From NCBI GenBank assembly GCA_000697055.1, contig JNDT01001581.1, positions 1 through 64,000 on the forward strand: a DNA stretch of 64,000 nucleotides. Direction: 5' to 3'. Below are positions 3,216 to 59,790 of the stretch, piece by piece (the stretch's first letter is position 1; each line of letters begins with the position of its first letter). The notes under the pieces were generated by a model. That model saw nothing but the letters and a program-made list of their open reading frames with translations, did no database searches and had not been told where the DNA came from. Position numbers and translations under genes: made by a program. This DNA is from Saksenaea vasiformis B4078 (taxonomy: Eukaryota > Mucoromycota > Mucoromycetes > Mucorales > Saksenaeaceae).

Positions 3216-6200
3216 ATGACCGTACCACCACCCCAGTTACGCTTGAGGCGCAAAAGGAAAAGGGCGGCTGAATCAGGGATATCAGTAGACCAAGCACTTG
3301 AGGCCTTGTACAGTGTCTTCCACGACCAACTGAAAGCGATAGTCCTAAAAAACTTGAAGATAAACCCAAGAAAAAGTCTACAAAAAAGCACAGAGAAAAA
3401 CATTGCAAGAACTACGAGAAAGTCTGGAGAAGGCAGATCGCGTTCCAAGGTCGTCGTTCGAACAAGCTGATGATATCCTTAATGCAGAACAAGGGACTAC
3501 CAGGAAGACTCTTGCTTCAAAATATCCTGGATTAGGGCAGATTGGTGCCCTTTGGCAAAAATACGCCATCGCAAATTTTGATGACGCTGCCGAAAAAGCA
3601 CAGAAAGAAATTGACGAACAAGTGCAGGCGAAAGAACAAGGCTGCAGCATGGATACTACTGAAAACAATGAAAGCGACGGCGAAGAGGACACGATCCGGG
3701 TATGCTCGGTTCGATTATCTGGAATCTTACGAGGTGATCTGGATGATGAAGTGAAGCAAGTGTTTCTCGATACCATAACTGCCACATCCGAACAAGTTAC
3801 GGACTACGCTGCTGAACTTGGGGCAGCAGTACATGCAACCATGCTAAACTACGCTGCCAGTACCGTCATATTGGATCCGCATTCAAAGCAAGCTCGTTAT
3901 CAGCAGGACAGCCCAGAGATATTTAACATTTTGGAAGTTATTCCCAAAGAATCAGTCCGCAATCCAGAAGCTCTGAACTCGAATTTGACAATACCAGTGG
4001 CGCCACTGCCTGAAAATGTGTCGAGTTATCTGAAAGCTTTGCCACAGAAGAGCAATGATGAATTGAGCAACCTATTCAGCGAAGCCCATTTGCAATTTAT
4101 CCATTCGAGCTGTTTCGGGAGGCAGAGTTATAAAGCTAGTGAGAAACCTTTCTGGTCTGCGCTGCAACACTCAATGTTGAAGGATTTGCCAAAACCACCT
4201 GCCGGCTTAAGCACCACAATGCACTTTCAGCTGAAGCAACACTCCGCCAACCTACAAAACATGTGGGCAGGCGGTTTGTTCCATAAATCAAATAAACACC
4301 TGCTCCGTATACTTCTTAAGCTAAATCTCGCCCCTGAAAGGGAGCAAAAAGTCCGTCAGATTGCCGAGAAAAAAGCAAGAGAGAAAGAAAAACAGCAGGA
4401 GGAGAATATCAAACCAATGAAAAGGAAAAAGGAATGGCATCGGCGTCAGATCAAAGGAAGAATAAAACAAGAACGCAAGAATCTAAGACGCCTGAATAAA
4501 CGGCAGGAGGTGGAAACGGACCAATATCAAAGGGCTAAACTATTGCGACGTGAGAATTCGTGCACAGATGCAATTACAAGATTGCAATCACGCACGAGTG
4601 AGGAATACATGCCCAAGAAAGGTGAAAATCCACAGTCTCGGAAGAATGAAAAGGTGAGCACAATATCCGATGTCGTCGACAAATTAACCGAAGGAACATT
4701 ATGTAGCCTAAAGGTGAGGTAACCGAGTTGGATATCCCTGTAGATATAAGTGGGATGGACGATGAAGGAATAGATGAGGCAATTGAGATGGCAATCTCGG
4801 AGATGCAAGAGGAATCAGAAGAAGTTCAGGCGAATGACGCGAAGAAAGAGCCCAGCAGAAGAAGATTGATACGAATTCAAGCTATTACAAAAAAAATGTT
4901 ACTATCAGCAGACATTGAAGGAGAAGTGAAAGATGCTGATGTCTCAGGGTTATGGAACGACGACTATAACAACCTCCAGAAGGTCGAGATAGATATCATC
5001 GTGCAGATTACGAATGCACTAAGATCATATGTATCAAAAGGTCGATCAAGCACTGCGATTTCCTTGGGTGTTCGATTTGCTTTGTTATCGAATACCGTTC
5101 TCCGTGCTACGGGTTACAGCAAATCCACTGCTAACATCTACCCAGCGATCAGCCCTGCCTCAATCCATGCCCTGCCTCTCGATGCGGCGTCCATGTATGA
5201 ACTCTTTGGTTCGACTTCGGCAAAATTTGATTTATACAAAGAAGATGGAACTGTGATTGCAAACATTAGACAAGCTCGAACGAACAAAGCCGCCGTAATC
5301 GGCTCCTTCTTTGATCAAGACAAAATCACCCACATTTACAATGCTCGCGGTTTGGAACCACGGTGGCGAGTAACTGTTACACCCCATCAGATGGCGAGAA
5401 TTGATGGGAATGTCCAAAAAGGAAAGATTGTAAGTGTATCTCACTATGAAGAAAGAAGAAAGAACGCAAAAGGGGAGAGTACGGATGCGGGGAACAGCTT
5501 CTTTGAGAATGGATCAAATCTAGATATTTCAACTGTTACAGCATCGCTGGAAAACACAAAATATAAGGTGAAATCTCTGGAGTCGACAGAAAGGGAATCA
5601 AAAAAGGCCTTACAACAGGCAGAAAATGTTGTCCAAAATCGGGCAGAAGAGCAGCGGCGGAGAAAAGACACTGTCCAAAGGAAAATCCGGGACAAGCGTA
5701 AGCGCGACAAAATAAATATCAGCGATCCGAGGGCGAAGGAAAAGCAAAGCGAGAGCTACAAAGATTTGAAGATGTCGAAATTGGAGTGCGCAAACAAACA
5801 ACATAATTTGGGCAAGATACGGTCTGAACTGGCAGATCAACGAAGGCGGCGATATGTATGTCAGAAGGTAACTGAAGGATATCGCATGCACCAGTCAATC
5901 AACCGAATTAAATCAAACTATAGCAACTGGATGGTCTCAAGAAGAAGCAGAAGGGAAAGGAAAAGAAGTCGGAGGGAGACGATGAAAAGGAGGAGGTAAA
6001 GATGTGTAAGGTTACAAGTTGGACTCGCCCAGGTTGCGAAGCCAGTACACAGTTCCTTGACATTACAGAACTGGATCGGCAAGTCAGCCAGGATCACAAG
6101 AAAGCTATTACCTTTGGCGGAACGGATTATGGGTTGAGGGTTCTGGCGACAACTGTCCCCCTTACAACGGAGCGCGCTCGCCTACATTTTGACTTACACA

Positions 6201-7144
6201 ATCGCCAATTGGACGATACCCAGAGACCAGTATCCATTCCCGAAGAAATTTCCAAACTTCCCAAACCAATGCGGATCACGGCAGGATATTTGGAAGAGAA
6301 AACATTTTCCAGGAAGTTTCGCAAAAAAAGAGAAAGGAGGAAAAGGGTATAGTAATGGCAGTCAGTAAGTTCAGGGTCTCACTTCATATTAGAACGACTT
6401 GACGGTTAAAAGCGCAGAAAAAAGTTTGAAAAAAAGTTCATCAGTTTTAGCAACCACTGTAGAACAAGTTTTAGAGTCGCAAGAGGTGCTATCCTTTTTT
6501 TTTTCTTCTACCTCTAATTCTTCAATACATATTAGGTGAAAAGAAACTGCCGAAAACGACTGCGATCGTTTTACCACTCAAATCACGCTCACCATGAGAA
6601 ACGTACCCAGGCACTGTTTACTAGTCGAGTCTATGATCAGATTGCTGCGCAGGAGCGAAGGTTTGTGAAGACAGCTGCCAAGACCGAGAAGCATGGTGCA
6701 CAAAACATCGTGCCTATCATGGCCATAGGAACTCAGGGCACCGGTGTCAGTTCCCGACTGAAGGGTCATATTAGACGTGGAGGGGCATGGCTGCGTAGAC
6801 GACATCGCATTTATGTGTCAGTGTCAATGACGAACGAGCACCGGAGTTCTCAGTTATGTGTCTACTGTTTTGGAAGAGTGGAGAGGGCCAAAACTCGGCG
6901 AAGAAAGAAGGGAGAGTGGAAGACAGTGAGGGTAAACGGTGCCTCTCAGTGTGTCAATCCGAGTTGCACAGTGTACCGATCGGGCCATGCTACACAAAAT
7001 AGAGACGTTCAAGCAGCTCTTGCAATAGGTCTGGCATGCGCAAGCAATGTCCTGTCTGTAGATAGAAGGACGTTAGCACCTTTCGACCCCAGCAATTTCT
7101 CGGCTGGAAGACCATTCATTCCCGGCGCCACCAATTATCGGTAA
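3216..7144 (+). CDS. Large Fanzor-type (TnpB-like) RNA-guided nuclease, catalytic motifs retained
   Basis: This is a predicted five-exon gene: 3216-4653, 4707-5867, 5924-6346, 6393-6485 and 6536-7144, with GT..AG introns of 46-56 bp that restore one reading frame. The product is about 1,200 residues. The N-terminal half is alpha-helical and lysine-rich, with a conserved TTRKTL..YPGLGQIGALW block and a basic coiled coil near the middle. The C-terminal third has the RuvC-like fold: GGTDYGLRV (RuvC-I Asp), TNEHRSSQLC (candidate alternative Glu), a CVYC..CVNPSC zinc ribbon, and NRDVQAALAIG (RuvC-III Asp). Fanzors are transposon-encoded homologues of TnpB that cut DNA using a guide RNA transcribed next to the gene. 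The frame before 3403 is unsettled: frames shift at an A5 run near 3396-3400, so the ATG at 3216 is tentative. There is no in-frame stop in exons 2-5. Confidence 0.82.
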
Positions 7145-7400
7145 ATTACCGTCAACCGTATGACATGTATACACTAATATTACGCCCATATTTTGAAGGT
7201 GCGCGACCTCTCCACGGAAGCTCTGCGAAGAGTAAGTACTGCCTCTGCCTTTGCGATAATAACCCTTTTATCAAATGAAGGTTGAGTGGATCGGGACCTG
7301 TCGCCATGACAGGAGTTATCGTGAATTCTGGATCAGGTAAAGAAAATCAAACACAGTATTACAGTTTTCTGACTTTTTTTTGTGAGACACAGATGAGATC
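7145..7400 (+). ncRNA. Candidate guide-RNA (omega/fRNA) region 3' of the large Fanzor
   Basis: TnpB and Fanzor guide RNAs normally overlap or follow the 3' end of the nuclease ORF. Here the sequence after the stop contains a perfect 6-bp stem with a 5-nt loop at 7297-7313 (CCTGTC/GACAGG). This is position-based inference; transcription was not observed and no right-end boundary of the element was found. Confidence 0.2.
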
Positions 7401-7992
7401 TAGGGTTCAGATACAGGAGTATGTCCCGCAGCAATAGCGTACGACGCTCAGCATATTTCAACTACTTCTCTCTATATTTACTTCTATGTCCTATATTTAA
7501 CCATAGATACGCATTGCCTTTAAACTATTTGATCTAGCTCCAAATAAACTCTACGTCGGATGTAGTCCTCCTGCATGCTGTACCGGGAATCGTCTAGAAT
7601 ATATTAAGACGGCACTGATGTGATTGAACGATTATTTCCTTGTGCCCTGTTTTCTAGACACATATTGATAATGTATTCCTAAGTTTGAGAAAGGCGTACC
7701 TCCTGAAGACGGTTACCTTACCAGTAACATTGATCTATCACACTTGTACCTGGGAACGTTTTGAACTGGGATCAAAACTTTGGAACGGAACCTGAAAATG
7801 TCTTTTTCTCGATCTCCTTCCCTGAGACAAAGAGACAAAGTACATGTCTACTCGGTGATAACACAGCAGCTGTGATAAAGTAGTACATGGCCACATTATT
7901 GCGTTTCGCAGCAGCTGTGACACGTTTTCGCTGCGAACAAACCGAAAAAAGGTGCGGAGGCGTTGAGAGTTCTTGGCATTCGTGCTTTAGCC
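7401..7992. other. Intergenic region, promoter side of the Zn2Cys6 gene
   Basis: No coding feature is supported here. AT-rich sequence leads to the ATG of the downstream transcription-factor gene at 7993. An in-frame extension back to 7963 exists but starts with TTG, not ATG. Confidence 0.5.
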
Positions 7993-12362: not shown

Positions 12363-12449
12363 ATAAATATGTCTATTTGGTCCTGATAAGATAGCAGCAC
12401 TACAGTCACGTGACAAAAATGGCAAAATTTCAGCATTATCTTATTCAAC

Positions 12450-12815
12450 CTGTGTATTGTGCGTTTGACGAATGAAGAGAAAAACAGGATTTCATCAAGC
12501 TGCTGTAATAACCAAGAGAGATTGCAAGCAAAACTTCGGCGCATTTAAGAACTGTCTATAACGTCTTACATAACTGTGAAACGCGAAGTTCGGTTGAACG
12601 ATCGAAAGGATCTGGAAGGCCAAAAATACTGTGGCAGCGTAAAATTCGAGGCTTAATGAGAGAGGAAGATAAGTCGCCGCGCAACATGAAATGAAATTGC
12701 AGATGCACTGCCGGTCGAAAGTCAACAAGTCATCTAAGCAAAGTCTACAACGACGGCTTCCCTAAAAAAAATTCGACCATTAACAAGTGGAAGAAGTTAG
12801 TTTGGACGGATTAAA
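12450..12815 (+). pseudogene. Tc1/mariner-type transposase relic (DNA-binding N-terminus)
   Basis: Reading across frames, the region gives RTVYNVLHNCETRSSVERSK followed by GSGRPKIL..RKIRGLMREE, the paired helix-turn-helix and GRPRKL linker of Tc1-family transposases. After a gap it gives KWKKLVWTD, the block that precedes the first catalytic Asp (usually W..V.WSDE). Several stops interrupt it and no C-terminal DDE part is seen downstream. It is a dead, truncated fragment lying between the PLC-like gene and the second Fanzor. Confidence 0.6.
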
Positions 12816-13253
12816 TGCCGTTTGGAAAAATGAACTCTCCAAGTGCTCGTCTCCAATGTCTTGCGTATGAAGCAGACAAAGATGCACCTATAGCTGAATA
12901 TCAATCTTTGCAGAATGAAGTGATCCGCTTACTACATTTAATCCAGTCGGATGCTAGTTTGATGTAGAAAACTGTAAGCGTGGCGGGATTGATAAAGTAC
13001 AAAATGCTGTCAGCTGAGCACCAGCTTGATTTGGAAAATTTATCAGACAAAGAAGCGTTATGATATATAATACACCGTTACTTTGAAAACTCTATCTTCC
13101 ATTTCAAAGGATGTCACCGAAAAAAAAGCAAAAAGGGTGCTTTTGTAGCGATGCATTTAAGTTTGAAAATGCGTGCTCTGATAACAGGTCTTTAGGAAAG
13201 AGAAAGCGATAATAACAGAAAAGTCGCCCAGTCCGGGTACATCGTAAGTTGGA
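12816..13253. other. Intergenic region upstream of the second Fanzor
   Basis: It holds a 50-codon ATG ORF (12815-12967) that continues in frame past one TAG to about 13063. No family is recognised. It could be debris or an unrecognised 5' part of the Fanzor locus. Confidence 0.35.
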
Positions 13254-16200
13254 ATGAAAGAGCACTCAGTATTGCTCATGAATACATCTCCAAGTGAGAC
13301 AGAGGACATAGAACTTCAGGCGGCTATCACAGAGAGCCGCCGCGTAGCCAGTCATAGTGGAACATCGGAGGCAGGTCCCTCCACCGTATCGGTATGGCCT
13401 CGCCAGCTGCTGCCAGCTAAATCTGCCCGTCGTCCCGAGCCCGTCGGACATCGCTACTCTGGTATGTCGCCTTTGGATATAATCCTACAGAAAAAGCGTG
13501 AAAAGGCGGAAAAGCTTGAACAAGAGGCAAAGGAGCAAGAACAAGGTAGTGCCATGATACTTCCCTCACAAAGCTAGCTCACATACCCTTATTATCTGAT
13601 AGTTGTATGCAAGCGATGCCATATATTAGGCCACCGCGATGCCCGAAGCCGGCAATGTCCCTTAAACAAAAACTTTGACCCTACTGCTCAGGACGGCAAG
13701 CACAATAGATGATATTTTATCTATTTTCTAATACATATTCGTAGACAATACAGCATTCAGGAGCCATCGTAAGCGAAAGCTTTCTGAGGCTGAGAAAACA
13801 GTAGGGAAAGCTGAGAGACGTCGGGGAAAACGTCAGCATAGAGAAGCCGTTCAAAACGTAGACGAGTTGAAACGGTATCCTACCTGTGTTGCAAAAGGGT
13901 GCTACGATGATCAAGTCCCTCACGCCTTCCGGCGACATCGACAGTGCCCATACCATATTGAGTCACTCGAAGAGAGGCTCAAACATACATTGGGTGACAA
14001 ATACCAGATATTTGTCCGAAAGATCGGCCTAAGCACCGTGTTACAGCAAACACCAAACCAGAGTGCTGAATTTATACGACAGTCGACGACTTGGTCGATT
14101 TTCAGTGAGAAGTGCTGTCAAATCTCTCTGTTTTGCTTCATATTATGTGCTGCAAGTTTTGGCTTCTAACCGCGAACCAATGCCTATTCTTTTTTCACAA
14201 ACATTCTTCTATGCTTGTATCCAGCTGGTGCTTGGTACATCGATCACAAGCAAAAACCGAAAACTTCCACGAACCGACATGAGACGGTCCTTCCAAGAAT
14301 TTCATAGCCAATTTCCATCCTGTCTTGTAACAAGCCGTGATCTACCTTATGCGCACGCAATGACATCTCTGGCCGTGCAATCGGCGACTATATTCGTCAA
14401 TTCCGTCACAGAACCATTTGAATCTCGCACAATCAAATATTTCTTTTTTAAGTTACGAGACCTAGTACAGTACATACTCACAACCATCTTCTTTACGAGA
14501 GTTATTCATCATTATCATATAGGAAATTACAAAGAAAGATGCGAATGTGATGGCTTGTTACATCTACGACCGTCTATCATTGGTGCAACCTCCAAGTTGG
14601 CCATCCACCGTTCGGCGCACCAATGCGTTGCAAACGGCCGTTCGTGATATCATTCAAGGTTGCCGTCCTCGTCTTCCTCCTGGCCGAATTACTTTGGAAA
14701 CTCTCTCAGCACATCCCGAGAAATATCTGCCTTTCTTGTATGATATTCTGCAAGGGTTAGAAACATATAACAGGGGAGAAGTGGCACTTGCTGAAGAAGT
14801 CCAAACAATTGCAAATTGTAGTTGGGCTTACTCTGTCATCCGAACTCTGGATAAATTCGCTGGTCTAGGCCGCCGATATCGTTCTCGACTGGTTACAAGG
14901 ATAGTTAACGCTGTCAATTCCTCGCAACCAACACCTCTTGTTGCAGAGCGCTTGTCGCAAGGAACACTTTGGCAGCTGGAGAATACTGTTGAAACAGCAA
15001 GGGCCCAAATACGAAATTCAAAGCGATACTTACAAGAACTCCAGCAGCGAGGTTCCACAAGCATAAGGCGGAAGGAGTGCTTTTTACCTGAATCCTTCTT
15101 AACAGCGAAGCAACGTCGCGTGTTTTCCTTGATGCCAATGTATGGTCTCAGAAGGCAGTATGTCACTATCGATGTCCAAACGTTTCGACAGTTACTACGT
15201 CAGAGCAATATCCCTCTAATTGCGGAACCAGAGGGCGATGACCGGACTACAGCACAGTATAAAACGGCAACACGGCAGTTCGCATCAATCATGGACTTTA
15301 ACAAGATCCGTTGCAGAAGGTAAGAACGAGAAAAATTAGCAGCGCGTTTTTAACGCATTGAAATAGTTTGTTAGAAGATTTGGAGTCGGATAATCCCCCT
15401 GAGATTTTCACGAATCTACTGAGAACTGTTGGTTACGCAGTCAATTTTGTGTTCGCTCGTGGCATTCATGAGAACGATCGTTTACCTGATCTCGAGACTA
15501 GTGATTTTGACACCTGGGACCTGGAACATTCGTTCGAGCTGTGGGGCGCCGACCCCGGTATGACGGAAGTTTATGTCGCCAGCAACGGTCATGGCACAAA
15601 CTCGCATGAGCAACGAAGGATGTCAACCGCAGAATTCTACACGATGGCTGGATATCGAAAGACGAATGCCAAAGTTCTGCAAATGAAACGAGAAGAAATA
15701 CAAGCAATTGAACAATGAATTACGACTAACAAAACAGCCGACATTGAGACCTTGACTACATTCGTGCGGTCACTTTTATCGCGATTACCGCAACTTTTCC
15801 GTTTTTACGATGAAAGACTTACATCTCTGAGATTTCTCAACTATATCGGCAAACAGCGAGCAGAAGCTGAGATGATCAATATCTTTTTGGACGGCGGAAA
15901 AAAGTACAATAGACGGAGGCTAACAACAAAACGACAAAAACACAATCAAGAGACTAAATCCAGACGAAGAAACCAATGGAAGAGAAAAAAGAAAGGCACC
16001 AAGTATGTTCCTGAACGAGCAATCATTGTACCTTTATTTGCTTATATATCTAAATTTTGTAGAAAACTGAAAAGAGATAATCCAAAGACGAGGTATTGAA
16101 ATGTGTTTAGATACTCGGGATCGGTTTACCAGATATACTGTAGAAAATGGCGTAAAGCACCATTGTCAGCACCAAGCAACAAGATCTCTTTAATTGCCAA

Positions 16201-16579
16201 GTTCCAGACCAGTATGCGTGGAAAGGTGTCAGGCCTCGCTGACAGATGTCGCAAGATACTCAAGCGTGCTGAGCGGCAAGGCTTGTTGGTGATGGTGAAT
16301 ATGAAAGAGTACAACACATCCAAGGTACAGCCCTCATTGTGCATACGGTCCGGTTGAACTAATTCTTATGTTTTTCCTTTTTAGGTGTACTCATTCTGCC
16401 GCAACAAGAGCCTCGAAAACCTGCAGCTGGATAACATTGAGGGAACGTTGTACAGTGTACTCGCTTGTAATAACTGTGGTACACTGTGGCAGCGCGATGT
16501 CAATGCCAGCCGCAACATGCACTATATTGCCACGGTGGAAGCTGGTGGTCAAGAACGTCCAGCCATATTCCTTCCGTAG
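13254..16579 (+). pseudogene. Second Fanzor lineage (WGADPG type), nonsense-interrupted
   Basis: Multi-exon Fanzor read from splice signals: 13254-13545, about 13604-13695, 13745-14464, 14523-15319, 15367-about 15997, about 16059-16324 and 16385-16579. The N-terminus has a CKRCHILGH..QCPLN zinc knuckle, then a second Cys/His cluster (CVAKGC..HAFRRHRQCPYH). The catalytic part shows FELWGADPGMTEVYVAS (RuvC-I Asp), RFLNYIGKQRAEAEMINI, GGKKY, a basic linker, VNMKEYNTSK (alternative Glu), a zinc ribbon (VYSFC..CNNC) and WQRDVNASRNM (RuvC-III Asp). Lesions: an in-frame TGA at 15716, a frame change near 14060-14110 with no matching intron, and the first zinc-ribbon Cys appears as Tyr. The intron at 13696 has a GC donor. 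It is probably a recently dead copy. It shares architecture with the locus at 48.7-51.6 kb rather than with the one at 3.2 kb. Confidence 0.8.
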
Positions 16580-16994
16580 CTCTCTATCCGTGTAACAAAA
16601 ACACGCTAGAAGTTTACAGGTCAGCCATGTTTTATGTCAGGCGACTGTAGTCTCGATTCAAGAAAATGATTAAGGCCCTATCATGGATCATAGGAATATA
16701 GCATAGCAATTCATATTACCAAACTGTTTCTGGAGGATCTAAAATCCCATGCCCGCGCTAACTATGGGATTCACGTCATTGAAATACGTGCTTGTCATCC
16801 AAGCATACGCCACAACGCAAGAGTTCTCGCTGTTTCCCAATTTCTTATTAGTATCATAACCAAGGATTTAATTGTACAAGCATAGTCACCCAGATATGGG
16901 CCAAATATTACACAGTATTTTTTTAGATGTTATTCTGTATCAGAGTTAATGAAGTTGCATGCGACGCCGGTCTTCAGTCGATAGCGTTTCTATA
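16580..16994. other. Intergenic region between Fanzor and CHFR-like gene
   Basis: About 415 bp between two convergent loci with no recognised feature. If the second Fanzor had a guide RNA, its template would be expected in the first part of this interval, but no strong hairpin stands out. Confidence 0.4.
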
Positions 16995-18691: not shown

Positions 18692-20200
18692 TTCGCATCG
18701 GTGTTCATTTAGCAAAAATGTCAGGTATAGACCAAAGGCGAGGAAGAAAAAAGATCAGCCTTATTTTTATTCTTTCAAATTTGGCCCTGCGCCTCTCGCA
18801 ACAGGTGGTACTGACTGAGCCTTGTGGCACACCACACAGAGTCGCCGAAGAACTCTAGTTCCCATATCCCTTACCAGAAGCCATGGCTGTGCTACTGCCA
18901 CATCGTGCGTAATCTATCTAGTAATGTCCAGATAGATGCACCATTCTATTTTTATCCAATATAATTCCCTTTGTTAATAAGATGTCTATGGTACCAACGT
19001 TTGGAGTAACACAAGGTTTTAGGCTCCACTCATTAGAAAATGCTTTCTGCCAGCGTTTGTCTAACAATGATTGCTTGTAGGAGTACCAGAACGAAGCGAT
19101 CCAAGATGTAATCGCATACCTGCAGTGATATATTATGAGACAAGTTACACGCTTCATTCGTACGCGTTAAAAACGCGAAACAAAACGTACGGAGCTATAC
19201 CTATATCGGATGTTCCGCAGAATACACCTCTTTTTCGGTAAATGAAACCTTTACTTCGCGAAACTTTACAATAAAGCTTATACGTGAAATCGGGGCATCG
19301 ACTTCTGACAATAACATATTTGCAGAAAATGTTTGGTGGGGTTGCTTGGCTGAAGATCGGCTGCAATGACCGTAAGCTCTTGATGCCGCTTGCCAGAATT
19401 TTTTTTCCTTTTACTTTGTGTTAGCCCCGATAGAGAAGCAGGTGTCAAATATGGCTGCTTAGGTAATACTATACCAAAACTGTCTTGGTTGAACGCAATG
19501 GGAGATAGTTAGATCTCTTTGCTCCATACGATAATAGCTGAGATTAATTCCTTCCCTTTTTTGTCCACTTTTTCCCCAGCTCATAGTGGCACACAGGCAC
19601 TTGCAACTTTGGATCCAACGCCTGAAGAGGCGCACGCATGCGTTCCGCCCATTTAAGTTATTCAACTGTGTGGGATGCATACGCCAATTATCTTAACAAT
19701 TTTGGCTCGGCAATGCTACCACAACAGCCAACTTAAAAGGGTAGCGCAAGCGCATTGCAGACAATACCAAAAAAGACATTCATGTTTCTTCTCCAAAGAC
19801 GTGCTAGATATATGAATTCTCTAACTAGTTAACTGATGTTCACCGTCAATAGACGCAAGTTTGAATGGTGACGGCGGATTATTGTTACGTCTAGCCATAT
19901 GTAAAAATACGCCACGAACATATGCAGCAGCCATTGCACCGCGGCGCTACCAGTGCTGTAGACTTGGCTTTTTCACAAATGAAAACAGCGTGGATTTTGC
20001 CAGCTTAACCGTAAGCATATGGCTTTTCTTGTGCACCTTTCAAGTTTGAGAAGAGAAGCGCGCATCAATTACGATGATACGTGTAGACACCTATAAGGAG
20101 ATGCCATAGGATCATAAAGTACCTTCTTTCTTAAAGTAGCTACCTTGAGCGGCTTTGAAATATTTCTGCCCTAGCAGATCTCTTCCCCGTAGTCGAATCC
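18692..20200. other. Unassigned stretch upstream of the CHFR-like gene
   Basis: Short ORFs occur on both strands (for example 19154-19366 and 18918-19157 on the minus strand). An FHA-encoding exon for the CHFR-like gene was looked for here and not convincingly found. No repeat was recognised. Confidence 0.35.
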
Positions 20201-20241
20201 GGGAAGATTGTATTGACAAAACCAATGATTAACGGCTTAGG

Positions 20242-20685
20242 CCATGGGAAAAACCAACGGGAAAAATACTGGTTAATACCAAGTTTAGGCACTTTTCCCG
20301 GCGTGAAAAAAAAAAAATCGGTATTTATCTACATCAATCCGGATTTCTTAAGATCTACCCGTCGTGTACCAGTATCTCCACGTCATCTCCTGGTGTTCCT
20401 GCATATTTCTCTCATTTCTCTGCAATTTCCTGTTACCTTGATCAGTGGACGTACTGCAGTCTACAAAAAAAAAACGCAATTTCTTAAGACAGGAAATTGC
20501 ATAAAGTCTCCCACTTGTATTGCTCACTTATCAACGACAACCAATGAGGTGGACTCGGTATTACTACGTATTTCTAAGTATTTTACCGTCGCGATGGCAG
20601 ATAATTGCGGGAAAACTTCTTAAAATCGGTATTTCTCGTAGCTGTCTACATTTCTCTGCATGTATCGGTCAAGTCTTTCCCATAG
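20242..20685. repeat. Possible foldback/MITE-like element
   Basis: The ends are similar inverted sequences: CCATGGGAAAAAC on the left and the complement of CTATGGGAAAGAC on the right (11 of 13 match). Inside is a perfect 13-bp inverted repeat (20421-20433, TGCAATTTCCTGT, with 20489-20501), and several short TATTTCT-like and CGGGAAAA motifs recur. Homopolymer A runs are present. A 136-codon ORF in the interval has no recognisable domain. The boundaries are uncertain. Confidence 0.35.
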
Positions 20686-20839
20686 TGTTATACTGATCTT
20701 CCTTTCGGTCGTTTGGTTCAAGAATTCGGAACTGTTCGCGGGATACGCATTTTCGAATAGATTTCGCAGTACCTTCGTTATATCTTTCGCTTTCACGCAA
20801 AAGATGGTTGGCAGCTTTACTGTTTATTGAAAAACATTT

Positions 20840-20999
20840 TACGCTACTCTAAATAAATTATGCGTTCATGAAGAGCCGAGTTTGCGCTAAGAAAATAATT
20901 GAATATGCGATCATTAGTTAATGAATTGGAAACAAAATCACATGTTTACTTTCATCAACTTGGTCCTCAAATAGACGCATAATTTATTGGAGCAGCATA
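20840..20999. repeat. MITE-like element, 160 bp
   Basis: The two ends form an imperfect inverted repeat of about 34 bp sharing the core AATAAATTATGCGT (left arm from 20840, right arm to 20999), around an AT-rich centre. No coding capacity. The arms fit a non-autonomous DNA transposon; no clear target-site duplication was found. Confidence 0.55.
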
Positions 21000-21878
21000 A
21001 AAAATCATTCACGGTTAGTAAATGGAAAATACTTTGATGTCAATTTACTTACCCCGAAGGTAATCAGGCCAAAGAGCCTAGGCCAAGCCCGCACTTGAGT
21101 CCGGTGGAGTAATAAGATTGTAAGCCGTGCAGAGGACTTGAAGCAATGCGAACGTGTGGCGAGTTTCTGTTGTGGATGATGGATAAGGCAGCGTGCGATA
21201 ATACTTGCTTACCTGGTGGTGAACAGGGGTTACATCACGGGCGGGACGGTTCGGGACAGAGGTCATGCAGGCTAAACAATAGACGGAAAAACATGAATAA
21301 TTCTATATGTATAAATTGACATCCTTACCGGAGACGTTAAAGATGAACAGAGACAAAGAAAAAAGGAAATTCGTGCGTTCCTTTAAGTATGTACTATTTG
21401 GGTGGAACTTATGCTTATCTTGAAACATTTGTACTGCCTTCCGATGGGATACAGGAATACCATCGCTGAAACACTTCAATGCAACAATGGAGTTACTCAG
21501 GTGTGAATTATACTCCTTGGATTAACGCAAAATAAACCACTTCTCACCGCAAAGACGCATCACTTTCCAGCGCAAAAGTTATTCAGCTAGGACGCTATGT
21601 GACATTTATATGATGCTAATGCTCAGTCATTTTCAGTATTCACTCATATTTGCCTGTTTAATCTTCATTGAATTTTGCAAACCTCTATTGATAGATGTTA
21701 GCTTGACACTTTTTTTTACGTACCTCATCTCACAATCATAAAACCCAGCAATAGTTTCATGATACAGCAAACGAGTGAGTGGTTGAAGAGAGATGTTCGC
21801 TAGATCCGCTGTCCTGATCGACGGAATTTTGTGGAACATTGGTCTTTTGTCCTTCCATAACTTCAAATATCTTATTGC
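21000..21878. other. Non-coding stretch
   Basis: Short ORFs only, none with a recognisable motif. Confidence 0.4.
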
Positions 21879-21974
21879 CACTACGGGAAAAAATCTTAAC
21901 TGTTGTATAATCTTGGAAAAATCTTAGAAAACCAACAAGATTCAAGATTTTTCCAAGATGTTGTTCCCGTAGTG
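21879..21974. repeat. MITE, 96 bp, CACTACGGGAA termini
   Basis: It begins CACTACGGGAA and ends TTCCCGTAGTG, an 11-bp terminal inverted repeat (one mismatch allowed beyond that). The interior repeats AATCTT/AAGATT words, so most of the element can fold on itself. A related element with the same right terminus lies at 58.18-58.28 kb. Confidence 0.6.
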
Positions 21975-24426: not shown

Positions 24427-24486
24427 GTTAGACATGTTGTTGTTCATTTTATGTACTTTATGCCTATCATACACATTTCCGTTTTA

Positions 24487-29142: not shown

Positions 29143-29404
29143 CCATGGGAAATGGGGATTTAGTAGGATTCGATTTGACTAGAGCCGGATTGGGTTTGCC
29201 TAATTTTCCCTAACAAAAAATAATCCTATTGAATCCCCAGTCACCAGGATTCGGTAAGATTGAAAAGGATGCAGGATAGTTAAAAGAAATTTATCTTGCA
29301 AAAATTCAGCGGGATTTGATAGGATTTCTTTTTATTAGGGAAAATTAGGCAAACCCAATCCGGCTCTAGTCAAATCGAATCCTACTGAATCCTATTTCCC
29401 ATGG
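29143..29404. repeat. 262-bp MITE with about 70-bp terminal inverted repeats
   Basis: The left arm (29143-29213) and right arm (29335-29404) are nearly perfect inverted copies, starting CCATGGGAAAT and both containing TCGATTTGACTAGAGCCGGA. They differ only by a small indel and a few substitutions near the outer ends. The 120-bp centre is AT-rich and non-coding. A TA dinucleotide flanks both sides a few bases out (29138-29139 and about 29407-29408), compatible with a Tc1/mariner-type target duplication but not proven. Confidence 0.75.
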
Positions 29405-43300: not shown

Positions 43301-43386
43301 CATCATATGACATACATTCAGTCAAAGTTAGCACCAGACAGCATTCGTGCTTGGATGGACGATATATTTGGAACACCTAGTTCCGT
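37375..43386. other. 6-kb gene desert
   Basis: No gene or repeat could be supported. Many short ORFs occur on both strands without recognisable motifs (for example 38372-38653, 39394-39657, 40453-40746, and overlapping plus and minus ORFs at 41812-42251). The segment is AT-rich and may be old, unrecognisable transposon sequence. The first few hundred bases are the 5' flank of the glycosyltransferase gene. Confidence 0.4.
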
Positions 43387-48731: not shown

Positions 48732-51630
48732 TTAACTAGTTAAGGGATGCGGCTGTGTGATCAGCCGCGTTCGTTCGCGGAAAGGAGGAGGGCGCTCGTT
48801 TTCGTTCCGCATCATGTACATGAAAACCTTCCAGATGTTACTGGCGGCCATGCGGTCCCGGTCCCAGAAATTCGCCGTGCATGGACTGTTTTGACACTTC
48901 AACACAGCGTGGATCTTCGTTGCTTGGCCGTCTGCATCTTGTTTTTCCTTGGCATTCTTTAAATCGCGTATACCACAGAGAGGACAGATTTGCGGTGTCA
49001 AATATTCATCTATCATAAAGACGAAAGTGGGAACCTAGAGACAGGTGTGAGTAATGTCCTGCCTTGAATATCACTTACACTTCGTTGTGTTTTGCCTTCT
49101 GTTTGAGTTTGCTGACTATTGCCTTCGTTGGTGCAGCTGGTCTGCCTTTCATACTCCCGGAGAAGGCGACATTCCCGTACGCGATGATGATCGGACGGTT
49201 TCTTTCATCGGCTTCACCATTCGGCGAACGCGGTACCCATTTTTTCTTGCTTACTTTTTTCATGTTTTTCGTATTCTTGTGATCATATTTCACGCTCCCA
49301 TACAGGAGACGACTAGCAAATTCATTTGAATTTCAGTTTGCTATATCTTAAAGTAAAGTTGTCAGTGCAAAGAGACTGTCATTCCCACAGTATACCTGAG
49401 GTCGCGGTCGTAATCCTGTCGTAATGGGTGAATATGTAGGACATTGCCGAAGTCATTTCTCCCAAATCTACTGTTTTCGGCGAGGGAATCTTATCGATGA
49501 TAGATTTCGTTTCGGGTTCTTGCTCAAGGTAAGAATTTCGTAAGCGAGTCGCATGATTAAATCCACAAAGAGAATAATACTCTTTGGTTGTGGTTCGGCG
49601 TACTGTGGGCTGTATTACCATCTCCATCCGCAGCCACGAATAAACTGGAGACCCCCGGGTCGACGCCCCAGATTACCGCGTCTGGATACTTGTCTTTGAT
49701 ATCGGCCGGCATAAGGGCTTTTCGTTTCGGATCGAAAGGAGTCTTGTATTTTTTAAAAGGAACTCAATATCCACGCCATTGGTGCGGATTGTGTCCCTAT
49801 GAACCATGTCAGAAGTACTCCCAAAAAATCGTACAAATTTACTAAAATATCGAAGTCTCTGTCTCAAGACTTTCAAAGGTTTTGTGCCCGATTTTCGCCA
49901 TATCAAACGCGCGAAAATATTCGCGCTGTACATCTGCCGTTTTCCAGGCCGAGTCACTATCAAGCATACCAGCTTGAGTGAGCAATTGACCCAACGCCTG
50001 ACTGTCGATGGTTATATGTCGCATCTGGAGACTGTACAGCGGAAGGATCGTAAATTTTCTTGATCCTTTTGGGTCCGTGTATTTGTGCGGGAAAAATGAA
50101 TCGTTTTCAATTGAACTTGTGGTATCTTTGATAAACTTCTCAACAGCTATGATCTCTGTCTCCGGAAGGGTTTTGATCTTCTTTGGTAGTTTTAGAGCGG
50201 AACGATTTTTGATAGCTGTTCTGATTGCGTACTCGAGACTTGACACGATCGGCTTGGACATATTGCTCGTGTTTACCAACTATAAAGTAGATCAGTCACC
50301 GGATGTATAGTAGGCAAACATTACCTCTTTCGTCTTTCGATGAATGTACCCTAACGATACATACTTCTGCGGTTTTGGTTCTTTGATTGACACCTTTTTG
50401 TTAAAGCGTTCCAGAATATGGAAGAACCAAGGTAAAAAGAGATGCGGTTCGGCGTTCAGTATCTTCTCGTCAATCTTGCTGATACCAATGATTTTCTGAA
50501 CCGTTGCGACTTGGTCATTTATATATTTCGATTCTCCTTCGTGCGCGGAATCGAGCCAGGCCAAGAGAGGTCATCACCACAGACTTTGTGATAGATTATA
50601 TCCGCGACCATTCGGCGATCTTTTATTGGTAATGCTTTCAGGACAGCAGAGTTATCGCCGTCAGACATGCACACCAGCAAGTATTGTTTGGTTCGTCTTT
50701 CAAAGTTCTCTGTAACGTGATTTCGGATTGTTTCTTCGTACTCCTTCGAAGCTGATGAGATGGTTGTCATGAATCCTTCGGAATGAAAATTTGAAGGATC
50801 AAAGCTAGGTATCAATAGCTTGAATGCGGCATACGTTTCTTGCAACGTTGCATCCGAAACTTTGCCGTAACCAGCGATAAGCGAGAACATGTTATAACAG
50901 AGGCTATGCGTAATCTGCGGCAGTTGCTTTTTCTCAGAGTATAGCTTTGTGAAGTAATAGTTTGCAAACACTGCCTCGGCATATGTGATATCTCTCACAT
51001 TTTTTACATAGTTTACGATGTGGCCGGCAAGGTTCGGGTCGCGGCAGACCGTGCTGAGCGATGCCTTTATCACGCTGGTGCGCTTGAAATCTATGGACAG
51101 TTTTCGCTTTTTGACGTGCTTTTCGCACAGTTCACTGGTGCTTCTTTGATGGTCGGTCTTGCCACACGTGGGACATCGCAATGTTCTTCGCTTTGAGAGT
51201 AACACCTCTCTTCTTTCTTTTGCAATCTTCGCTCGTGCTTCGTATTTTGCGTCCCGTTTGCCATATGCTTTCTCAGCCTTGGCAAGCGCCTTCGACTTTT
51301 TAGTTGACGTACTCGCTGAGGTTTGATAAAATTAATGACAAAATGAAATCTGAAAGTGGTCATACCTGATGTAGAGGCCACACCAGGATCGTCCTCAGAC
51401 AATGATGGAACGGAACGGAGATGAGAACTACTGCCGGATTCAGGCAGAGCTACCGCTTTTCCTTTCCTTTTTCTATGATGAAACAATGTCAAGTCTTTTT
51501 TTTTTCTTATCTTTGGAAAAAAGTCAAAGGAACTCCTGTACGTACCTAACCGTGTTTTCCTGCGTATTTTTATGGGAGTTGGAAATCTTCGTCGTCGGGA
51601 TCCAGTTTGGGCTTTTCTGATAATTCCATT
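48732..51630 (-). pseudogene. Decayed Fanzor of the WGVDPG lineage
   Basis: Minus-strand Fanzor homologous in layout to the locus at 13.25-16.6 kb. The N-terminal Cys/His cluster is LRCPTCGKTDHQ..SELCEKH (about 51190-51110), after a Ser-rich leader that begins in an upstream exon near 51.6 kb. The middle part has FTILPLYSLQMRHITID. RuvC-I is VIWGVDPGVSSLFVAADGDG. The later part reads KEYYSLCGFNHATRLRN, GNVAFSGSMKG and MIDEYLTPQICPLC (alternative Glu and zinc ribbon start), and ends with FWDRDRMAASNIWKVF (RuvC-III Asp). Lesions: frame changes near 50.53, 49.85, 49.75 and 49.6 kb, an in-frame TGA near 49.34 kb, and an apparent loss of the GRQ..GGKKY block before the second catalytic part. The last 94 codons (48732-49016) are intact. 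Confidence 0.82.
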
Positions 51631-53317
51631 TTTGATGAGACGACAAGGAAAAAGAGAGACGTCAGATCAATTTCGTGCTATTTGTATGATATGTACTACA
51701 GTCACATTAATGCGATCATTGCAATCGTCAAAGTGAACGAATCCATCTCATCAGTTACATCTAAGAAAAGGCAAGCGGAGCAAATCCAAGGACGACATTG
51801 CTACCGGGAACAGGCGGGGATCGATGATGTACTTCAAGAAGACCATCCGTAGATATATGTCACACGAAGTCGTCTCGTAAAAGAAACGCTAAACTGAAAA
51901 ATAAAGGCCAGTAGAAGTAGCGCAACAATGAAGCTTTACAAAAATTCGCATCACATAGGAGGACTCGAAAAAGTGCTGCTTACTGAGAACACTGCGTGTA
52001 CTTGGAGGAGGCTTTATGATAATCCTGAAAATCTTACAACAGTGATATATCAATTTTATGAGTCTGATATAAATCCATACAGCAGGGAAATCAAAAAGGA
52101 CAAAGGCACAACTGTATGATTCAGCCATACAAAGTAAGCAAACTTCATGTCAGATACTGGATCTTTGCTTCTTGGGAGCCGTAAAGGATTCCGAAACTCC
52201 ACCACGCTAGATTACCATTAGTTCATCTCGAAACTTTGATATCTTTTTTTTTTCTCAACAACCATGAGGATGTAAGGCTTTTGCTGACAGAAAAAAAAGC
52301 AGGGACAGCAGTATCAATAGTAGCAGGAAGCAAGAGTCAGTATGTTCAATGCGATGGCGGATGTCCAGAAGTTTTGTAGATATGAAATTGTTTTCCGAAT
52401 CGAAAGATGATGAATAAATATGCAACATCTGAGCGGCCGCCGATGTTCTAAGAAATATGGTTGATTGAAATGATCGCCGCTGTACGATAGTACAAACGTT
52501 TCTAAGAGGACGCACTCATTTTATTTAGAAGGGCTCGTTTGAAAGGGATGACGTGCGATGTCCGAACACGTAGCATTCATTAGACTTTCGGGTGTTCCAA
52601 TGAGACATGACCATCCTCCATACATGGAGAAAAAAAAAGGAAGCAGAACAGTAACAGAAAGCAGGGCTGGTATGGTCATTGCAGTTTGGGCCTCTCAGTC
52701 CATAATGCGATGCGGATAAACGCCAATGAAACGGTGGTTTGCGCTTTTTAGTCCAATCAAAGCTCTCGGTTAGAAAAGACTATTTCCTTAGTAAGAGGTC
52801 CTTTTCTAGATTTGCATTTCAAATATTTGACAGTGGCTAGGGCCTACATTCAGCAAGTAGTTAAAGAATAAAGCATGCGTTAATTAACCATGAATACTGC
52901 CTTCGAGAGCATTTCTTTTGCCTACGTCAAACAATTCTGACGAATACTCACAGAATCATTGGTTACGCGTATGTAGAGCTGAGGGATACATCTTAATGTT
53001 AATGTACGAAAAGGCCGCTGAACGCATCGGTCGCAGAGTCTGTACATACAAATTATTCACAGCAATATTCATGTTGTCCGTCTGTTTCCTGTATCGCGTA
53101 GTATTCATAAGCAAACAAATAGAGTCGTTAATTCGTTCGGGAAAAGATCGACCAAATGTTAAATAGTTTTACTGTTGATGTTGTACTATCAATGCGATGA
53201 TGTTTGTTAATTTGTGTTACAGATTTCCTTGTCGTGTCCTAATGTGACCGCTTATAGAGCCGCATGCGGAAATACGTTCACCCCAAGAGAAAAAGTATGC
53301 AGTTTTTGCACGACACC
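51631..53317. other. Intergenic region
   Basis: It holds short ORFs without motifs. An 82-codon frame at 52918-53166 with one hydrophobic stretch starts with TTG and matches no family. The 3' part is the promoter region of the splicing-factor gene. Confidence 0.4.
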
Positions 53318-54920: not shown

Positions 54921-55590
54921 GAAAAAATATATTTTGTACCATGCGTATAATGCATACCTGTGTGTGTCAATAGCAAGTGTTAGCGGAGTGTGCTATATGT
55001 ACGACAGAAGAGGGGGCCGTGCTTCAACAGGATTTGTTGTCATGGTGTCAAATGGAGAAACAGGATTTTGCAAGTAGCAAGATATATCTATTTGCCCCCC
55101 TGATATTCTATATGAGGCATCCTACTGACTGACGGTTGTTTACCTCCTCGATGTGCTTGTCCATCTAAACAGATACTGACAAACGGCTTTTCTTTACATG
55201 AACAAGATAAGAGCTTGATTTCACGGCTGGAATAAAAGTTAGTTCCGGACTCATGTATCTATTCTTGACGATTTAAGAAGGAACAAATGAGAAGGTAGCA
55301 CACGTACACAAGGATACGAAATAAGCATGGGTCATCTCGTTTTTCCGGCAAGTCCTAACCAGTTCAACTAATATTGCGTGTATAATCAAACAAATATGTC
55401 ACGCATACAATGCTAAAAAGAGTATGAGGTACCAGCAACCCTGCAGCCTGCCTGTGTGTCCTATCTCCTTATTTTCTCCAATGATTTTATCCGTTCTTCG
55501 GGGGCCGCAGAAATGACATACACATAACATCGAGATTAGCCTCCTTCCTTTCGAAGTTTACTCGTTTGCTTTGCGCTTTTTCTATTCTCC
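54921..55590. other. Intergenic region
   Basis: About 670 bp between two plus-strand genes, with no recognised feature. Confidence 0.5.
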
Positions 55591-56811: not shown

Positions 56812-58178
56812 ATGGATAGCAAGTATTTTGTAATAAGATAACCAGTGTATTTTTTAATGGGTGGTATTTGACTCCTCAGGGTCAGTAACGATCTTTAACA
56901 AGCACTTGTTTCACCCATGTTGGAGATAACACACTAAATTACTATTTACGCAACATCTAATCTATTCTACCTTATGAAACCATATGAATGTAAAAGTGCC
57001 TGAGCAACAAGACATGGGCAAATCTCGGACGGGGCTCAACTAGGAACCCAGTGGAGAAGCCGGTATCTGCTTCGTCGGACATACAAAAATTCCTATTGAC
57101 CAGTTACAACGAATTCGACGCTGAAAATGCAAGTGCTGTTACATCTGCTGCTTTCTGTTTTTGCTCCTCATATCTTAAACCTTAAACTACTTTATAAGCA
57201 ACATCGTATCAAAAGTTGAGTGAATGCTGCGCATTCGCGCGTCATGCATCATCACTCATCGAAAGAACGTTTACAAATGAAGTGGCGTCTGTCTTCTCTT
57301 TAAAAACCTCGGTGTTATCAAACAGTAGCGATATTTTCAATCTAAGTCTGGAATTTTCTTCCAAGAGCACATATAATTCTGTCAGCAATATTATCTTCTG
57401 CCAGCTCTTCCTTGGTGATACCTATTTATTCTTGCAGCGTGTATTTTGTATAGCAGGGTGGAATAAACTCCGGTTAAAAAAAGGAACTAAAGCAGTGAAT
57501 TTCGGGAAAAGAGACCGCAAAGAAGAATGATTGCAGTATTCTGTACTGTTTGCGACTTGCTGGCTACATTCTGTATAGATAAGAATCAAAGAAACGACGT
57601 TCTTCGCATAAATGAAGTTCTATACAACGATGTCGCTTTTTCCCATCTTCAATTTTCTTTTGTCCACGATCTGTTCTTTTATGGAAAGACGGCCGCCTAA
57701 AATGCCGTCACAAGGATAACCATGTACCGAGCCCATTTGTGGAAGTTATCTTGCGTATTGCGCAGCGTAAGTTTACCCATATGTTATTATATATCTAAGA
57801 GGCTCTGTCTCCGCAGTCCAATTTGTAGATATAACCGATTCCAACGGTGACAATAATCGTAAAAAAAGTATCTAGGACGTATTTGCTTCAGTATCATTTA
57901 TGTATAACATATATTTTCCCTTTTGCAGTAGACAACAGACGCATCAGCGTTTTCGAATCTCGGATGATGTTATCAAGTTCGCTGCTGCTGACTTGCGTGT
58001 CTCTTTATCAACGGAAACTCTACGACGAGTGCTTTACTCTTGATGTTGCCAGAAAGATATAAATAGCACATATGCCCCTTTCCCTAATGCTATTGAAAGT
58101 AAGGCCTTAGTGTACCATAACAGTTGTACGGTTTATGACTTGTTAATTATAGATCAGTGAACCGCCTGCATATCACTG
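56812..58178. other. Intergenic region
   Basis: Short ORFs without recognisable motifs. A frame with two likely intron-like gaps around 57.7-58.06 kb gives a short helical reading (VIKFAAADLRVSLSTETLRR) that could not be assigned. Confidence 0.35.
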
Positions 58179-58279
58179 CACGACGGGAAAAGTCTTTTAA
58201 AAAAATGTTTTGTAAGATTTTGAGAGATCTTGCGAAGATTTGACCAAGCTTTGCGACAGTAAGGTAATTTCCCGTAGTG
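58179..58279. repeat. MITE, about 100 bp, related to the element at 21.88 kb
   Basis: The left end GCACGACGGGAAA and right end TTTCCCGTAGTG form an imperfect terminal inverted repeat matching the CACTACGGGAA termini of the element at 21879-21974. Internal AAGATT/AATCTT-like words recur. The left terminus has diverged. Confidence 0.5.
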
Positions 58280-58639
58280 TATTGTGAGATAGGTTTTGAG
58301 CTGGTATTTCTATCATATACAGGGATCTCAATCCATCATTTTAAGAGAAGCGAGTTTATGCAAAGCCGATCCACGACGATCGTTTCGAGAATTGCTATGA
58401 ACATCCAACAGGACACTCCATCACACGAATTTTATGTAAAACCGCTCAGTATCTCGTGGCATCTCCGTCATTCAAAACAATAAGTCAACTAACTAATTTT
58501 AACATATTTCACTGTTCCTAAAGATATTCCATTTGATATGGGCGTCTGCTTCGTGTATCCCGTCACCCGAGCCATCTTCTACTTTTGAAACGCTTCCACC
58601 GTTCGCAGCGTTCTAGCAATACTAATAACATTATATTCC

Positions 58640-59790
58640 ATCGGTTTTCAGAAAGAGAAGGGGCTCTTGTCTCGAAAATCTTTTGAATTTGAGGAAGCTG
58701 GCTGTCCCGATGGAACGTCTCTAGCAATTGCCAGAAAGAAATGTAGCAATGGAGGGTCCGCAAGGAAAAATCAAGCGGGCGCATCGGAAAAGCCTGCTGC
58801 ATTTGACCTATCATCTTTGATATCTGCTATTAAGGTGCTTGAATCTGATGAGAAGCGCCATCAGAACAAAATATCCGAGAGGTAGACGCATTTCCGAGGA
58901 GGAGAAACGACATTAATTGCTGCAGAACAATAGGAGTGGAAATGCTGAGGATGAAAATTCTAAAGCGAAGTTATCAAGACCTTAAGGACGCCAGTCATAC
59001 ATGTACATGTGCTGTAGAATTGAGCCGGTTTAGCGACATGAAACTCCGATTAAAAGATAAATGGACAATGCTTTATCAGGCGCAAAGGCTAATGATATCT
59101 AAAAGGAGACCAAACAAAGGGAAGAAAGATCGCGCGAACTACCAGTATTGACACCACGAATGCAGGCACTGGCTGTAGAGGATGATCCCTCTTTCATCGA
59201 CCTGCCAACATTAGGGAATGAAGATGCAGTCGCTGCGAGACCGTTGGTGTATAGCGGAACGGACTATGAAGTCAGATCTTCATCTGTTATCGATTATCAT
59301 TTAAAGAAATTTCCGATATTTTACAACCTGCCGATTCTGTTTCATAAAAAGATATCATAATATCGAGAACATCGCTATATCGAGCGACCACTGTAATGGA
59401 AATGCTGTGAAAATTTTGACTGGCAGCCACGCTCAGTAGGCTGAAAACGGCGCGCTGGTCCAGACAGAGAAGCTGTTATTAGAAAATTCGTTGAAACATG
59501 TTTTTATCAACCGGGATATAACGCGAAGACAGGATATGAAGTCGATATCTAGTCTTAGCAAGTCAATTGTTTTCTCATGTTTGAATAACAGCTCGCAAGA
59601 GAATCCAGGGAAAGCCTTGTAGGACTTTTACTATTTATCAAGGACATAGCGACAAGCTAAAGCACAGAATACCTGAGAAAGAAGGTATATGACAAAGTGA
59701 TATCGCACGAGAGGAGAGACTTCAAATGGACGCAAGACCAAAAAAAATACGATAGTAAACTTTCGAACAAGCAATAGCAGCCGATATTTT
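58640..59790 (+). pseudogene. Relic of the large Fanzor lineage
   Basis: Pieces line up in order with the Fanzor at 3.2-7.1 kb. A helical part (FDLSSLISAIKVLESDEKR, then SYQDLKDA) corresponds to the basic coiled coil. AARPLVYSGTDYEVR at about 59235-59270 corresponds to the RuvC-I block GGTDYGLR and keeps the Asp. After gaps come ENSLKH (versus EKSLKK), DFYYLS (versus SFYHSN) and KVYDKVISHERR (versus RVYDQIAAQERR) near 59480-59720. Stops and frame changes occur throughout. No RuvC-III or zinc ribbon was recognised, so the copy is truncated. Confidence 0.6.

Follow-up and report, generated by a model that had tools for sequence, protein, structure and literature searches.

We put the probability at about 85% that the 64,000 nucleotides at positions 1-64000 of contig C282 of Saksenaea vasiformis B4078 (the window) hold five dead or dying Fanzor1-type genes of two lineages, three of them riding in different classes of transposon, and that such genes work, when intact, through a guide-RNA mechanism. 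Fanzors, the eukaryotic TnpB proteins, are relatives of CRISPR nucleases carried in transposons; they are compact and RNA-guided, and have potential for editing. The assembly comprises 38.7 Mb in 666 contigs, and all other contigs cited here by C-number belong to the same genome. Every Fanzor copy in the window is non-intact, and the one that we call locus 1 is the closest to intact.

The GTDYG lineage: loci 1 and 4

Locus 1 (3216..7144, + strand) is a GTDYG-lineage Fanzor gene, recognized by profile matches and by a splice pattern like that of a sibling copy on C160, whose frame is open over 1225 codons (1225 aa). In the window copy, the frame of exon 1 is broken near 3340-3400 and then runs over 3364-4652; apart from this break it stays open through exon 2 (from 4707), exon 3 (5924-6345) and exon 4 (6536-7144). 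The open frame includes the codons of the RuvC-I Asp (6125..6127, in GTDYG), of the "alternative" RuvC-II Glu (6836..6838, E-x6-CxxC, in TNEHRSSQLCVYC) and of the RuvC-III Asp (7004..7006, the NRD that follows the C-x4-C zinc-finger half in CVNPSC...QNRD), as well as a VYDQIAAQERR block. The published Fanzor motif, D-X(125,275)-[TS][TS]XX-C4 zinc finger-X(5,50)-RD, is present when exons 3 and 4 are joined, with 177 residues from D to SS and with CVYC..CVNPSC followed by RD. A frameshift at 5924-5996 was considered and rejected, because the copies show a frame change after a TATAG acceptor, as expected of an intron.

A profile (A1) of five GTDY-type proteins, namely the C160 copy and four database relatives from Apophysomyces, Mortierella and Mucor hiemalis (P0001-P0004), matched locus 1 in five pieces at 577.6, 492.8, 350.6, 214.5 and 56.4 bits, against a best score of 3.6 bits in the reversed window. 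The best database relative is a protein of Apophysomyces ossiformis, at 67% across the part used in the search, and paralogues in the same genome are 23-98% identical to the last exon. The window copy differs from that on C531 by 7.1, 4.9 and 12.9% at codon positions 1, 2 and 3, respectively. Given this bias toward the third position, the copies of the locus 1 family probably descend from genes under selection.

Locus 4 consists of two collinear scraps of the same lineage (59103..59774, + strand, at 59103-59357 and 59661-59774), detected with the GTDY profile, in which the only surviving motifs are GTDY (~59260) and VYD..ERR (~59690). A dispersed repeat lies inside it (~59297-59383), and 84 bp are 81% identical to C501:125839-125922, directly upstream of another GTDY exon match.

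The DPG type: loci 2, 3 and 5

The profile used for the second lineage (A4) was made from nine DPG-type proteins, which are nine of ten database relatives (P0014 was left out). It matches locus 3 (profile positions 13-736) and locus 2 (64-733) piecewise and in order, and its best score in the reversed window is 5.2 bits. Locus 3 (48735..51331, - strand) is a pseudogene with at least four frame breaks relative to its siblings on C371 and C10. It carries WGVDPG, the N-terminal cluster CPTCGKTDH..CEKH, IDEYLTPQICPLC and WDRD; TP takes the place of [TS][TS] in the published Fanzor motif, whereas the C371 sibling retains LTSKICPLC.

Locus 2 (13732..16578, + strand) is also a pseudogene, identified by its motifs, by sibling comparison and by the DPG profile, with a frame break near 14.1 kb and a stop at 15716. 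It has WGADPG; in its N-terminal Cys/His cluster Tyr replaces the first Cys (RYPTC, for RCPTC in siblings C391 and C630), and its C-terminal zinc finger is without the first Cys (VYSFC, for VCSFC in the same siblings). A stop at ~15365 was rejected as frame damage; it falls within an apparent intron common to the siblings. Copies on C443 and C202 are relatives of locus 2 at 50-54%.

Locus 5 (19827..21848, - strand) is a repeat-interrupted relic akin to a paralogue on C527. The DPG profile matches it at 21636-21923(-) (E 8.3e-5) and 19824-19946(-) (E 0.0035), and C527 gives three collinear tblastn matches (best E 1.4e-10). The repeats that split the locus (20818-21065 and 21231-21628) match ~C561:17200-18350. 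Near their predicted N-termini, C527 (QTLITSFF, ~751) and C633 (QTLIISFF, reverse, ~463) have a peptide resembling what we take to be a PCNA-binding motif. This pattern is absent from P0001-P0014 and from the element carrying locus 3 (element 3, below), and the element carrying locus 1 (element 1) matches it only within intron 3.

Assignment to Fanzor1 and division into two lineages

By their sequences, loci 1-5 are Fanzor genes or remains thereof. Against the PDB, the DPG profile reached SpuFz1 at E 1.5e-7, with TnpB and Cas12 chains next at E 0.07-0.66, while the GTDY profile reached SpuFz1 (8gkh) at E 0.0022 and gave no match to a TnpB structure up to E 1. The latter alignment spans the RuvC-II stretch, the alternative Glu, both zinc halves and RD. 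The two profiles also match each other over RuvC-II, zinc finger and RuvC-III (probability 93%, E 2.7e-7), and a single-sequence search with the C-terminus of C527 found GtFz1 at E 0.0033. Given that the carriers are not of the IS607 kind and that the PDB matches are to Fanzor1, we place the genes of the window with Fanzor1 rather than Fanzor2. Some results weigh against these assignments: the GTDY profile scores at locus 4, 9.3 and 7.2 bits (E 0.03 and 0.13), are weak and individually insignificant, the GTDY match to SpuFz1 is modest, and single-sequence phmmer searches of the PDB with locus 1 exon 4, P0006 and P0001 returned no Fanzor.

The Pfam family PF07282 (curated cut-off 26.3 bits) recognizes several DPG-type copies. 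The C-termini of C371 (28.4 bits) and C527 (28.7) pass, as do the locus 2 relatives C443 and C202 (27.8 each), and two further relatives of locus 2, C455 (26.0) and C410 (24.5), miss the cut-off. Locus 3 itself scores 21.3 bits (E 3e-4), which is under it, and none of the 137 matches listed from the genome search (150 of 388 candidates scored) is in the window. Few GTDY loci (7 of 124) overlap a PF07282 locus, and when the GTDY alignment served as the profile for a search, P0001 alone was among the matches listed.

The lineage split was examined in a tree whose 14 rows are sibling copies and relatives from the database, made without Fanzor2 and bacterial TnpB sequences, in which the window is represented by one piece in the locus 2 row. 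GTDY and DPG types separate across a single branch with support 100/100, and the locus 1 family is sister to the Apophysomyces protein; the locus 2 row is on a long branch, and its placement is unsure. Relatives of the GTDY type are found in Mortierella and Mucor, and those of the DPG type in Apophysomyces, Rhizomucor, Radiomyces, Helicostylum, Umbelopsis and Thamnidium.

As described in PMC10711439, the Fanzor fingerprint joins DPG, which is nearly exclusive to these proteins, to a Glu placed six residues ahead of CxxC. The alternative Glu stands at this distance from the first CxxC in all six GTDYG-lineage rows. DPG is replaced by GTDYG in the window, C160, P0001, P0002 and C634, and by GTDNG in P0003 and P0004. 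In five of six rows, a 27-residue spacer leads to a second zinc half of the form C-x4-C (none was seen in P0004); SpuFz1 shares this arrangement, which falls outside the published search pattern. Given the alternative Glu and a C-x4-C half and spacer like those of SpuFz1, the GTDYG lineage reads as a derived branch of Fanzor1, and an independent bacterial origin seems unlikely.

A preliminary description of this DNA had listed RuvC-type motif blocks at four loci, with GTDY and VYD..ERR common to loci 1 and 4, and WG[AV]DPG and N-terminal Cys/His clusters common to loci 2 and 3. All of these are present (with the Tyr noted above), and at loci 1-3 the profile matches are far above the reversed-window controls. 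The four loci that it called Fanzors are Fanzor genes or remains of them; it overlooked the fifth relic, at 19.8-21.8 kb (-). Its proposal of at least two lineages agrees with the tree, where the types did not fall into one clade, and the profile searches that it suggested do reach a Fanzor. Carriage by transposons, which it took from general knowledge, can be seen at three loci with identifiable Crypton-type, Tc1/mariner-like and Helitron-like carriers. It also saw copies ranging from apparently intact to relic: the range of decay is real, with locus 1 at its better end, and a fully intact copy is absent from the window.

Three carriers of different classes

Element 1 (1..7414, + strand) is a Crypton-type composite that carries locus 1 and is shared at full length with C561, where its outer flanks are different. 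Its 3' end is base 7414: 25 of 29 matches to its tail were inspected, and 23 align through this base; 17 continue with TG. Its 5' end would lie ~0.7 kb outside the window, at C267:67933 (equivalent to C561:6870), if C267 joins C282, as their 68-bp overlap suggests. Divergent to the Fanzor gene is a relic tyrosine recombinase (625..1185, - strand; NDC10_II, PF16787) with six internal stops, which the search of the genome recovered at C282:625-1185(-) with 43.5 bits (E 4.1e-10); a piece of the C561 copy scores 26.8 bits (cut-off 26.3).

The 5' part of the element exists in two types. The one in the window and C561 extends over more than 2 kb at 97% identity, begins with AAATAC and holds the relic recombinase; the other, of ~560 bp, is found in C531, C604, C270, C160 and C458. 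AARTRC occurs at 12 of the 14 five-prime junctions shown (C177 and C394 are the exceptions). The bases that follow this motif recur past the 3' end as CAGA in C160, AG in C270, TGTAAGGGT in C458 and TGT in C139, and merely as TG in C531, C604 and C548. A tyrosine recombinase, short terminal direct repeats and the lack of a terminal inverted repeat (TIR) are the features of Cryptons, and element 1 shows them, with 2-9 matching bases after TAC depending on the copy. The window bases just past the 3' end (7415-7420, AGGAGT) are identical to C561:6876-6881, which follow AAATAC, and unlike those of C267, a hint of an assembly mis-join or of exchange between the window and C561 copies. C309 was considered as an autonomous partner of element 1 and dropped, as the expected arrangement was absent.

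Element 2 (12401..16649, + strand) carries locus 2 and is Tc1/mariner-like. Tc1/mariner TIRs begin with CAGT, and insertion duplicates TA. The ends of element 2, TACAGTCACGTGACA and TACAGTCGCCTGACA, can be read as TA followed by CAGT..., and form the inverted repeats TACAGTCRC[CG]TGACA at 12401 and 16649. This 15-base terminal pattern has 28 matches in the genome, compared with 0 for the backward pattern, and 21 of the 28 are at most 5 kb from a Fanzor match. What counts against the assignment is that no transposase could be linked to the element: neither of two open reading frames (ORFs) scanned in it belongs to a transposase family, and C282 does not appear among the DDE_3 matches listed.

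Element 3 (48736..52810, - strand) carries locus 3 and is Helitron-like, with ends 5'-TC...CTAG-3'. A subterminal hairpin, GCGGCTG-ATCACA-CAGCCGC (48749..48768, - strand), lies 13 nt from its 3' end. Helitrons insert between A and T. In all four copies shown (C115, whose flanks are the same as those of C10, was left out) the TC start, the hairpin, the CTAG end and the T that follows are present, and the preceding A is found in three. These are also the ends given for Helitron1 in PMC3627910, namely 5'-TC, a 3' hairpin and CTRR-3'. In C371 and C10, the CTAG terminus itself supplies the TAG at which the Fanzor frame stops. Helitron, Crypton-type and DDE_3 proteins are all encoded elsewhere in the genome.

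The 3' tail of element 1 and a possible mechanism

Between locus 1 and the end of element 1 is a conserved non-coding tail (7145..7414, + strand, ending ...GGGTTCAGATAC), which is a candidate guide (omega) RNA scaffold. It is found at 84% identity or more in 21 of 29 rows, the window among them. Its last part (7271-7414) is 100% identical in C531, 97.9% in C604 and 98.6% in C561, close copies in which exons reach 88-96% and introns 1 and 3 reach 82-84%. A guide RNA would be the obvious reading of the tail. Several observations argue against it: in the close copies, intron 2 is kept as well as the tail (98.2%); in the distant copies C160, C458 and C472 the tail (89-92%) does no better than the exons; its folding is ordinary compared with shuffles (z -1.25); and 188 of 500 shuffles had a covariation score as high. 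A copy of the tail at C264:3710-3918 (98%) is without a listed Fanzor exon adjoining it, and resembles the Fanzor "ghost" loci described in PMC10432273.

RNA-guided cleavage by Fanzors has been published (PMC10432273, PMC11423790), and the same papers propose that it benefits the transposon. For the elements of the window, we infer an RNA guide, a target motif, cleavage and such a benefit. When intact, a carrier would be moved by a recombinase or transposase, either its own or one acting in trans. The Fanzor protein would bind RNA from the 3' end of the element, with a guide that extends into the 3' flank, and would cut element-free copies of the locus, so that repair may favour keeping or copying the element. 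For locus 1, the predicted target-adjacent motif is within the AARTAC of the 5' junction, and the guide would be taken from just after 7414. Broken as they are, the genes in the window now amount to decaying repeats.

Fanzor copies in the genome

Merging 476 match rows from the GTDY, DPG and PF07282 searches within 5 kb yields ~329 Fanzor-like loci genome-wide among the matches listed, fragments and relics included (8.5 per Mb), a number lowered by candidate scoring limits and raised by relics, fragments and contig breaks that split loci. They comprise 124 GTDY-type and 216 DPG/PF07282-type loci, with some in both. The expectation per 64 kb is 0.54 loci, and the window has 3 at that level of detection; elsewhere in the genome one place has 4 and several have 3. 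As 38.7 Mb contain ~604 windows of this size, each with a Poisson probability of 0.018, a 64-kb stretch with three detectable loci is unsurprising at this density. Copy counting, which the preliminary description had proposed, shows Fanzor-like loci to be abundant and takes away the exceptional character of the cluster; the window is unremarkable in itself, and it is the genome that stands out.

PF07282 matches on C29, C33, C74 and C428 have an equal score (54.2 bits) and an open frame of 146 residues, and may be a Fanzor family outside the window that has been active recently. Within the window, ORFs with Zn2Cys6, Forkhead, Myb, bZIP, IBR and RING domains are interspersed among the Fanzor loci. 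An inverted repeat at 29156-29392 (82-nt arms, 93% complementary, 73 nt apart) is possibly a small transposon. Rfam gave no match at gathering scores.

Alternative explanations

For the GTDYG lineage, the most radical alternative is that the proteins of loci 1 and 4 are unrelated and only mimic RuvC motifs. Pfam assigned no family at E 1 or less to three locus 1 exons (1, 2 and 4), and only insignificant families, below their cut-offs, to P0001-P0004, which would fit this idea. We nevertheless find it scarcely credible, because the GTDY profile matches both SpuFz1 and the DPG profile, and because a paralogue on C634 (45% to locus 1 exon 4, with GTDYG upstream) exceeds the PF07282 cut-off with its C-terminus (28.5 bits). 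The lineage could also descend not from Fanzor1 but independently from a bacterial TnpB clade with an alternative Glu and D-hydrophobic-G, and in PMC10711439 the combination of DYG with E-x6-CxxC is indeed given to a separate TnpB clade. Such a descent is very improbable, given that the C[VT]NPxC zinc half, the long spacer and the RuvC-II stretch align to SpuFz1 with no TnpB structure matching, and that Mucor has DNG at RuvC-I, so that this position drifts; nor did one pattern scan each of prokaryote and viral contigs, of limited distance reach, find a GTDY relative. Hardly less improbable is a wider version, in which GTDYG would be a separate eukaryotic TnpB branch, maybe a further bacterial capture, that breaks the fingerprint of DPG plus alternative Glu and has more than 100 loci (fragments included) with tyrosine-recombinase partners.

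Locus 1 may not be a Crypton passenger at all, and the relic recombinase next to it a chance neighbour. The recombinase-bearing 5' part is present in two copies only, while the other copies with a visible 5' part have a different one without recombinase; and the number of recombinase loci within 8 kb of a GTDY match (4 of 20, with ~1 expected by chance) also speaks against Crypton carriage. However, the window and C561 copies start and end alike between different outer flanks, divergent recombinase-Fanzor pairs with ~5 kb between the partners are also seen at C140 and C641, and no TIR was seen by eye, the ends of fungal Cryptons being short direct repeats (PMC3212892), all of which makes a chance neighbour quite improbable. 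Somewhat less improbable, but still unlikely, are the repeated independent invasions suggested in the preliminary description, in which each lineage would have entered separately by horizontal transfer. Such a history is compatible with the presence of two clearly distinct lineages and of three neighbouring carriers, and horizontal spread of Fanzors is considered likely in PMC10432273. The locus 1 family is, however, sister to an Apophysomyces protein, and GTDY and DPG relatives are found in the other fungi named above. The many divergent paralogues in one genome suggest long residence and amplification. Given the Apophysomyces sister, these paralogues and the high density of loci, independent invasions are not supported, and a better fit is given by families long resident in the genome that different transposons have multiplied.

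Comparison with known systems

Fanzors in mucoralean fungi, and carriers such as these, are already published. In the open-access literature, supplements excluded, we found no abundant Fanzor lineage with D-Y-G in place of DPG. Since the GTDYG lineage would be largely missed by Pfam and by the published DPG patterns, surveys may undercount Fanzors. The genome offers a series of copies from near-identical to diverged, with at least one open frame, from which target motif and guide should be readable at the element ends. Three carriers within 64 kb indicate that Fanzor genes ride several transposon classes in a single genome.

The solved Fanzor1 proteins of Spizellomyces punctatus, Parasitella parasitica and Guillardia theta are like those described here in the alternative Glu, the C4 zinc finger and the final RD, and the C-x4-C half with its long spacer is common to SpuFz1 and the GTDYG lineage. 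The lineage of loci 1 and 4 is unlike them in having GTDYG or GTDNG for DPG, in the length of its relatives in the databases and in this genome (937-1,285 aa) and in the lack of a Pfam match for the exons tested.

Among transposons, element 1 can be likened to the MCi-2 family of Mucor circinelloides as described in PMC3627910. In that account, MCi-2 is like element 1 in joining diverse 5' regions to one shared 3' Fanzor part, in having a partial Crypton transposase in one subfamily and no recognizable TIRs, and in that a fixed short motif precedes variable bases at both ends. The duplication pattern given there is ATAATTNNNN(N), compared with AARTAC/AGATAC and 2-9 matching bases in element 1. 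The same paper describes Fanzor1 genes within Helitron and mariner ends, which is the carriage seen in elements 3 and 2; the Helitron cases seen there are Helitron2 of Chlamydomonas, whereas the ends of element 3 resemble Helitron1 (TC...CTAG). CryptonF elements, as presented in PMC3212892, resemble element 1 in their Ndc10-related tyrosine recombinase, their short terminal direct repeats and their lack of TIRs, and differ from it in that the recombinase of element 1 is a relic adjoining a Fanzor gene.

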